NCBI GenBank assembly: GCA_030041475.1 | Contig: JASHNU010000040.1 | Location: forward strand, 62,001-126,000 | Origin: Candidatus Sulfotelmatobacter sp. | Lineage (GTDB): Bacteria > Acidobacteriota > Terriglobia > Terriglobales > Acidobacteriaceae | Direction: 5' to 3' | Length of the DNA stretch: 64,000 nt | In this document: positions 47,884 to 48,269 of the stretch, piece after piece | Numbering within the stretch: position 1 is the first letter of the stretch | How the letters are laid out: every line of letters starts with the position of its first letter | Notes under the pieces: model-generated | Told to the model about the DNA's origin: nothing | The model's database searches: none | What the model saw: only the letters and a program-made list of their open reading frames with translations | Made by a program: the position numbers and the translations under genes

Positions 47884-48005
47884 ATTGACTTCTATTTTAT
47901 GGCCAGTGGCGCGAGTTGGCTTTTCCCGAAACGAAACTGCAAGCCACAATATTTTCGGCTGTGTTCCGCACCCATCTGATGGCCTTGGCCTATGCTCTTG
48001 AGCGT

Positions 48006-48077
48006 GGGCCCATGGTGTAACGGTAGCACGATACCCCATCAAGGTATTAGGTGAGGGTTCGAATCCCTCCGGGTCCA
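48006..48077 (+). tRNA. atypical tRNA-like gene (tRNA-Glu-like backbone, anticodon reads AUC)
   Basis: Folds as a full cloverleaf: acceptor 48006-48012 with 48070-48076 (six pairs plus an A-C mismatch at 7-66), D arm with GGTA loop, perfect five-bp anticodon stem ATACC/GGTAT, five-base variable loop, T arm GAGGG-TTCGAAT-CCCTC and discriminator A. The body is closest in style to bacterial tRNA-Glu. The anticodon loop is CCATCAA: C replaces the near-universal U33 and positions 34-36 read AUC. No CCA is encoded. It may be a pseudo-tRNA or a specialised tRNA-like RNA. Confidence 0.6.
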
Positions 48078-48214
48078 TTCCTTCCTTGTGAGGGAGTCTC
48101 TCAGGGACAAGTGGAGAGTTCGTCGATGGGGTGCGACTCTCCTTAAAGTAACTTGATTTGCCGTGAACGCTGGACGGATAATCTATCTGATACCTTGATG
48201 GGGTGCCGACTACC
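48022..48214. repeat. imperfect inverted repeat of the tRNA anticodon region
   Basis: ACCCCATCAAGGTAT (48033-48047) has an exact reverse complement at 48190-48204; allowing G-U pairs the match extends over 48033-48053 with 48184-48204, and GGTAG at 48022-48026 pairs with CTACC at 48210-48214. GATGGGGTGC also occurs at about 48125, in the loop of a hairpin with stem GGAGAGT. Confidence 0.8.
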
Positions 48215-48220
48215 GGCATT

Positions 48221-48254
48221 TGCGAACGGCCTCGGGCTTCCGAGGCCGTTTGCA
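48221..48254 (+). terminator. strong hairpin terminator downstream of the tRNA-like locus
   Basis: A 15-bp stem with one G-T pair (core AACGGCCTCGG) and loop GCTT, then TTTGTT. It would end a transcript of about 250 bases that starts with the tRNA-like gene. Confidence 0.75.
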
Positions 48255-48269
48255 TTTGTTGGTGTCGTT

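Follow-up and report, generated by a model that had tools for sequence, protein, structure and literature searches.

What is the function of a tRNA-like gene that is followed, on the same strand, by a complement of its own anticodon arm? The question is raised by a locus in a stretch of 64 000 nucleotides from a genome of Candidatus Sulfotelmatobacter, a poorly known lineage of bacteria from soil, which was analysed as a whole and is called the window below. An earlier note on this DNA had offered two readings: a regulatory RNA in which the downstream strand sequesters the anticodon arm, or a decayed tRNA-Glu copy with an inverted duplication.

Anatomy of the unit

The unit is about 250 nt long in the window, and its parts are arranged 5' to 3' in the order P1 box, tRNA-like, hairpin B, P2, element C and terminator. 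The features are listed here by position in the window.

47991..47996, + strand: P1, -10-like box TATGCT of the tRNA-like transcript (survey of TAnnnT boxes in the units)
48006..48077, + strand: tRNA-like RNA with alanine-type acceptor (G3:U70, A73), without encoded CCA (ARAGORN, Rfam)
48031..48047, + strand: anticodon arm, tRNA positions 27-43; loop CCATCAA at 48036-48042, anticodon ATC at 48038-48040
48113..48142, + strand: hairpin B, with a loop segment (48125-48133) that complements the anticodon loop
48153..48182, + strand: P2, sigma70-type promoter TTGATT-N18-GATAAT (pattern scan)
48189..48258, + strand: predicted antisense small RNA of about 70 nt; start inferred from P2, RNA predicted from pairing, covariation and orphan copies
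48190-48204, + strand: element C (anti-anticodon-arm element), exact part, at the 5' end of the predicted small RNA
48221..48254, + strand: intrinsic terminator hairpin closing the unit; a terminator-like hairpin is found in relatives too

ARAGORN finds a single tRNA gene in the whole window (48005-48078, anticodon ATC). The Rfam model RF00005 matches 48006-48077 with 55.9 bits (cut-off 29), and acceptor, D and T arms are all present in its cloverleaf. No family but tRNA passes the Rfam gathering threshold in the window, and a known RNA family other than tRNA was rejected on this basis. The tRNA-like carries C33, A34 and an A7-C66 mismatch in the acceptor; its own anticodon stem is intact and CCA is absent. 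The folded body, the loop CCATCAA, C33, the anticodon AUC and the A-C mismatch had all been described in the earlier note.

The downstream complement reported there is also real. Element C is an exact complement of the anticodon arm over 15 nt, extending to 20 nt with G-U pairs (about 21 had been claimed); in shuffled downstream DNA (n = 300) the exact complement has a mean of 5.8 nt and a maximum of 10, versus 15 in the window. A second GATGGGGTG is found as described at 48125-48133, between the arms of a predicted hairpin that stands between anticodon arm and complement, and the closing terminator corresponds to the hairpin 48221-48254. Folded as one RNA, the unit has a z-score of -6.99, with the anticodon arm paired to element C.

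The P2 promoter-like site at 48153-48182 is absent from the earlier note. It has nine of 12 consensus bases, and the pattern scan found one such site versus 0.3 expected.

The neighbouring genes are on the opposite strand. Upstream of the unit they are a polysaccharide lyase gene and one small ORF, downstream mqnC and another small ORF. The two small ORFs have no Pfam match, and no synthetase is present among the four tested neighbours (polysaccharide lyase, the two small ORFs and MqnC).

Distribution of the unit

The unit is present once in the genome of the window. A DNA search of 61 genomes, including this one, gave matches in 29 at E <= 0.01, near-full-length at 74-78% in five genomes of the same genus. 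With a covariance model (R1) built from 22 units, full-length matches above 100 bits were obtained in 30 of 45 genomes of the genus (Candidatus Sulfotelmatobacter-type acidobacteria, some of them incomplete), one to four per genome and 50 in total. This patchy presence, together with the decay of units described below, shows that the module is dispensable.

Outside the genus, six loci in five genomes of a class-wide sample (399 genomes) show the arm-and-complement arrangement with a different sequence. A phylum-wide model search of 396 sampled genomes yielded only two genomes at E <= 1e-19, both of the genus, and blastn of the window's unit against the plasmid and phage GenBank collections gave no match.

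A pattern scan of named species genomes retrieved 54 stretches, 44 of them acidobacterial and many of these titled Candidatus Sulfotelmatobacter. As its selection used just the D arm and the 5' strand of the acceptor, the scan checks for the complement without selecting for it. A strong downstream complement (score 28 or more) is present in 39 of the 44 acidobacterial stretches versus none of the ten others, one of which is an 'uncultured bacterium'. From the reading of their anticodons, several of these ten appear to be ordinary alanine tRNAs. A canonical tRNA in all relatives with an unconserved complement, the pattern that would have spoken against the earlier note, was not what we found.

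Covariation of element C with the anticodon arm

In the 22 units of the model, the longest pairing run of the anticodon arm has a mean of 15.1 pairs with its own element C versus 8.1 with the elements of other units. Over 62 units, arm positions 27-37 pair with element C in 57-62 units, and different units use alternative pairs: T-A in 42 and C-G in 19 at position 33, T-A in 43 and C-G in 19 at position 35, and C-G in 49 and G-C in 11 at position 36. The paired fraction is 0.890 versus 0.672 in 2000 re-pairings (sd 0.013, maximum 0.719), a value inflated by the complementarity threshold with which units were accepted, although the threshold explains neither the re-pairing contrast nor the switches seen on the tree. 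This tree was built from the rest of the unit, without the anticodon arm and element C, and places at least 61 independent Watson-Crick switches at the 11 positions 27-37. The compensating changes for which the earlier note had pointed to related genomes are thus abundant.

Several loci were treated separately in these counts. L116 was dropped from the 62-unit pairing and anticodon counts, and L116 and L122 from all 61-unit counts. The 60-unit acceptor counts keep L116 and omit L011, L020 and L122, in which the reading is shifted or interrupted. L183, a divergent locus with a 15-nt complement, lies outside the extraction pattern and is in no count.

Within the tRNA-like itself, the outer pairs of the anticodon stem are often broken (27-43 mismatched in 43 of 62 units, 28-42 in 28), and the inner pairs 29-41 to 31-39 are mostly kept. 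Since positions 27-37 still pair with element C, the arm is held more strictly for C than for its own outer stem. The mean predicted energy of the arm-C hybrid is -28.9 kcal/mol versus -1.6 kcal/mol for the arm alone (61 units). Element C is predicted to be only partly unpaired in the folded small RNA, with a mean probability of 0.44 (0.37 in the window). Taken from sequence comparison, the specific complementarity of the predicted small RNA to the anticodon arm is well supported.

These results make it hardly credible that the locus is a decayed tRNA with a chance or duplicated inverted copy, or an inverted repeat at the DNA level; covariation over 62 units and a conserved promoter and terminator are at odds with both. 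Some loci do have the marks of an inverted repeat. One unit (L301, G010:C45) is rearranged at the arm/anti-arm repeat and contigs end inside the unit in two genomes (L302/L123 in G019, L300 in G024:C255), so that the repeat seems recombinogenic or hard to assemble.

Promoters, hairpin B and terminator

Of 61 units, 82% have a TAnnnT box at a distance of 6-26 nt before the start of the tRNA-like, versus 19% in shuffles. In P2, with sites picked by best score, the -35 box begins with TTGA in 58 of the 61 units and the spacing is 16-18 in 60, and this TTGA is invariant in the 22-unit alignment. Element C starts 8-19 bases past the start of the P2 -10 box (61 units), and a terminator-like hairpin follows it in 59 of 61. 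The position of a promoter-like site directly before element C suggests that the complement is the start of a probable separate RNA. The first reading of the earlier note is thereby modified: the unit is conserved and built to pair, as a sequestering strand would be, but this strand is, in all probability, transcribed from a promoter of its own as a distinct small RNA and not just as the 3' part of a single transcript.

The loop of hairpin B also tracks the anticodon arm. Its complementarity is 18.39 versus 15.44 in permutations (sd 0.32, maximum 16.72; 61 units), and none of 5000 permutations reaches 18.39. A first, unaligned test was weak (own 6.3 versus 5.3 Watson-Crick, and 7.1 versus 7.3 with G-U), and the covariation of hairpin B rests on the later permutation test over positions 28-37. 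Anticodon arm, hairpin B loop and element C thus covary as three elements, and from its complementarity the loop of hairpin B can be predicted to mask or kiss the anticodon loop.

Alanine identity and foreign anticodons

The tRNA-like body is, by its acceptor sequence, of the alanine type. G3:U70 is present in 59 of 60 units, although pair 6-67 varies, and A73 in all 60. According to a review (PMC11415595), G3:U70 suffices for AlaRS. Among the 43 distinct tRNAs of the window's genome this pair is found in tRNA-Ala(CGC) and tRNA-Ala(GGC) only; in the related genome G013 it is found in tRNA-Ala(CGC) only, among 31 tRNAs from the best 30 of 50 matches.

Of the tRNAs encoded in the same genome, tRNA-Ala(GGC) is the one closest to the window's tRNA-like. 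Over 61 units, in a comparison that includes the anticodon arm, the nearest real tRNA is most commonly tRNA-Ala(GGC) (30 units), followed by Asp (9), Arg (7), Glu (6) and others; in 31 of the 61, then, the closest match is a different tRNA. The idea of a tRNA-Glu remnant was abandoned in view of the G3:U70 pair in nearly all units, the proximity of the window's copy to tRNA-Ala(GGC) and the conservation of the unit across species.

No unit has an alanine anticodon (NGC). The anticodons of 62 units are GUC (40), GCG (11), GCC (6), AUC (3) and GCA (2), which correspond to Asp, Gly, Arg or Cys. C33 is present in 19 of the 62, C37 in 15 and A34 in three. CCA is encoded in none of 60 units and only in the phage copy L312 described below; of the 43 distinct host tRNAs of the window's genome, 42 have an encoded CCA. 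C33, C37 and the missing CCA count against a plain decoding role of the tRNA-like. Two proteins of the PF01743 nucleotidyltransferase family are encoded in the window's genome and could include a CCA-adding enzyme.

The tRNA survey of the window's genome (G000) gave further observations. Its 44 tRNA matches yield no real tRNA-Asp(GTC), tRNA-Cys or tRNA-Gly(GCC), all three of which are present in G013; the absences are probably assembly gaps. Some odd, low-scoring tRNAs, namely a Gly TCC (L075, G000:C18), a tandem Val GAC/Thr CGT pair (L071, G000:C42) and a Trp (L074, G000:C87), are possible phage or pseudo-tRNAs. Elsewhere, two units of different types (L212 and L220) have a similar short insertion at the same spot of the tRNA-like variable region, with element C intact; the insertion is perhaps a small mobile repeat.

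Loss of the tRNA-like part

A second model (R2), covering the part 3' of the tRNA-like, was used on the 45 genomes of the genus. It detects 74 loci: 50 full units, 20 in which the tRNA-like is missing or broken, two cut at contig ends, one interrupted by an insertion and one rearranged. The 20 losses were judged by eye and then by ARAGORN, which finds no tRNA in the 330 nt upstream in any of them, and by the T-arm motif, which is left in three. In 19 of the 20, element C can be paired at a score of at least 28 with the arm of some other unit; the exception is L277. A loose -10 pattern, of unchecked position, is present in 18 of 20, with some -10 boxes altered, and in L127 the damage extends to element C. 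One of the 20, an orphan element C with a promoter-like site and a terminator (L283, G000:C64:142641-142694), is in the window's own genome. Its specificity differs from that of the window's unit and no tRNA-like precedes it; by the model search, the window's unit is the only full one in this genome.

Losses of the opposite kind were sought with a signature of the tRNA-like. The 42 matches comprise 36 full units, two apparent protein-coding stretches, two contig-end cuts, one rearranged and one interrupted unit, and no intact tRNA-like with element C demonstrably gone; as the signature recovers just 36 of the 50 full units, some orphan tRNA-likes could be missed. One damaged counter-case is known, a locus of the genus (L125) with a near-intact tRNA-like body and no recognisable element C, whose altered D arm escapes the signature. 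In the scan of named genomes, the deciding part of L219 falls in an N gap, and element C carries a mismatch in L225 and L229. An antidote that outlives its poison would leave such one-sided remains, and the pattern is that expected if the tRNA-like were tolerated only together with its small RNA. Orphan small RNAs that outlive their partner could also mean that the small RNA has other targets.

The same loci bear on the view that the unit is a cis-acting attenuator, a single long transcript whose read-through or processing would be controlled by alternative pairing among the arm, hairpin B and element C. In agreement with this view, the arm pairs with C when the unit is folded as a whole, and all parts are on one strand with one shared terminator. 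It is nevertheless very unlikely, given that a promoter-like site stands just before element C in nearly all units, that 20 loci keep the C part without a usable tRNA-like, and that the ORFs taken for the window's downstream genes are on the other strand. A single-transcript attenuator was rejected as the main reading on the first two of these grounds.

Possible targets of the small RNA

Some of the anticodon arms of the units resemble real tRNA-Asp and tRNA-Gly arms, so that cross-pairing is possible in some genomes. This likeness and the existence of orphan small RNAs would fit a sponge or decoy, in which the tRNA-like is a stable decoy that takes up the small RNA, the latter being a regulator or poison directed at other RNAs such as mRNAs, real tRNA-Asp or real tRNA-Gly. 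We regard this as rather unlikely. For three small RNAs of G013 the pairing scores with the tRNA-like of the same unit are 37, 46 and 44, and none of 31 real tRNAs (from the best 30 of 50 matches) gives more than 24. For one small-RNA type, the perfect target has 34 matches in 45 genomes, 10 in units and 24 elsewhere, versus 38 for the reversed pattern, which gives no enrichment of perfect targets outside units. Moreover, sole survival is not expected of a poison, and G3:U70 would be needless in a decoy.

Viral copies and gene neighbourhood

A complete unit (L312) is present on a 62-kb IMG/VR contig (UViG_3300032770_000023); it scores 81.3 bits and has a 17-nt perfect complement and an encoded CCA. 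Within about 10 kb are genes for a terminase large subunit, a DnaB helicase, a helicase/methyltransferase and an endonuclease VII, and a piece of an IS1595-type transposase directly adjoins the unit. A second IMG/VR contig also carries a complete unit (L434). Five ORFs near it have no family match in PHROGs or Pfam, and its viral nature is accordingly taken from IMG/VR alone. As a control, the same D-arm motif gives at least 134 matches in at least 127 loci of IMG/VR; among the matches listed, only these two units reach score 30 and no other has a strong complement. One match below that score (L307) is a truncated copy of the L312 unit.

Some neighbours recur by unit type. A gltX/glnS-like gene accompanies one BLAST group of six loci (gltX was confirmed in L292), lepA is beside the unit in L290, and mqnC is near the unit in both the window and L289, in the latter at a distance of about 3 kb. 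Such kept neighbours, and the retention of alanine identity, could be explained by a physiological switch, in which a beneficial alanine-charged tRNA serves controlled misreading or a non-ribosomal use and the small RNA sets its level, with no harm or addiction involved. We think this improbable, and somewhat more so than a sponge, as the patchiness, the several units per genome, the one-sided decay and the phage copy fit a conflict or addiction element better.

Proposed mechanism

The reading that we favour, with a little more belief than doubt, is a two-RNA module in which an antisense RNA restrains a dedicated alanine-type tRNA-like RNA, the tRNA-like being harmful and the small RNA its antidote. 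RNA 1, transcribed from P1 and processed from a precursor, would resemble tRNA-Ala but have an anticodon for another amino acid. The loop of hairpin B, which comes after it, would kiss the anticodon loop and hold the precursor in check. RNA 2, a short antisense RNA made from P2, would open and cover the anticodon arm with its 5' end, and either block the tRNA-like or mark it for a double-strand RNase. Free RNA 1 would be harmful or costly, and RNA 2 would act as its antidote. In the likeliest form of harm, RNA 1 would receive CCA, AlaRS would charge it, and alanine would be placed at Asp, Gly, Arg or Cys codons, or translation would be jammed.

The antidote reading is favoured by the one-sided decay, the several specificities per genome, the patchy presence and the phage copy, and the harm suggested by an alanine-type body with foreign anticodons is mistranslation or blocked translation. 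It is conceivable, and we advance this more tentatively, that the unit is a mobile RNA-only addiction or anti-phage module, with an alanine-charged, foreign-anticodon tRNA as poison, a bespoke antisense antidote and a hairpin as safety catch, carried by phages too. New specificities would arise when the anticodon arm and both complements change together, and orphan antidotes would then mark past encounters.

If the antidote reading is right, an antidote pair can have a tRNA as one of its members. Alanine identity can then be used to subvert the genetic code, with base pairing as the restraint, and phages would carry the same device. The units constitute a natural series of matched and mismatched pairs, and specificity is thus directly testable.

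Comparison with known systems

We know of no description of an antisense RNA that is devoted to the anticodon arm of a tRNA encoded next to it. Titles and abstract openings in the open literature gave no report of a tRNA-like/antisense pair of this kind, and no Rfam family matches it at the gathering threshold. The nearest among these titles proposes antisense tRNA genes in mitochondria, a different idea (PMC2907346).

The mistranslating tRNA-ProX of Streptomyces is described in a review as having a proline-type body, A34 and A33, and a dedicated synthetase, ProRSx (PMC11415595). In both cases a bacterial tRNA or tRNA-like joins a body typical of one amino acid to an anticodon for a different one, and A34 occurs and U33 is lacking. 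The present units differ in their alanine-type body and in the frequency of these bases (A34 in three and C33 in 19 of 62). They also differ in having no synthetase among the four tested neighbours of the window's unit and in encoding a predicted antisense RNA and a predicted kissing hairpin alongside.

In T-box leader RNAs, an RNA loop reads the anticodon loop of a tRNA, as the loop of hairpin B is predicted to do. Hairpin B, however, sits in the same unit as its private tRNA-like, no T-box family match is found in the window at the Rfam gathering threshold, and the ORFs taken for the window's next downstream genes are on the other strand. RNAI and RNAII of ColE1 are an antisense control pair read from opposite strands of one sequence. 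Kissing loops and a short antisense RNA with a terminator are predicted for the present unit as well; here, by contrast, both RNAs are on the same strand and their complementarity is kept by covariation.

RNA-RNA toxin-antitoxin pairs constitute type VIII. In CreTA, one such pair, CreT contains a very short ORF whose rare codons sequester a tRNA, and its promoter is repressed by CreA through Cascade (PMC8501985). The present unit would be alike in consisting of two small RNAs, one of which probably restrains the other, with translation or tRNA use as a probable target. It is unlike CreTA in coupling a tRNA-like RNA with a partner that complements the anticodon arm, and this covarying pair points to a previously undescribed RNA-only switch or antidote pair.
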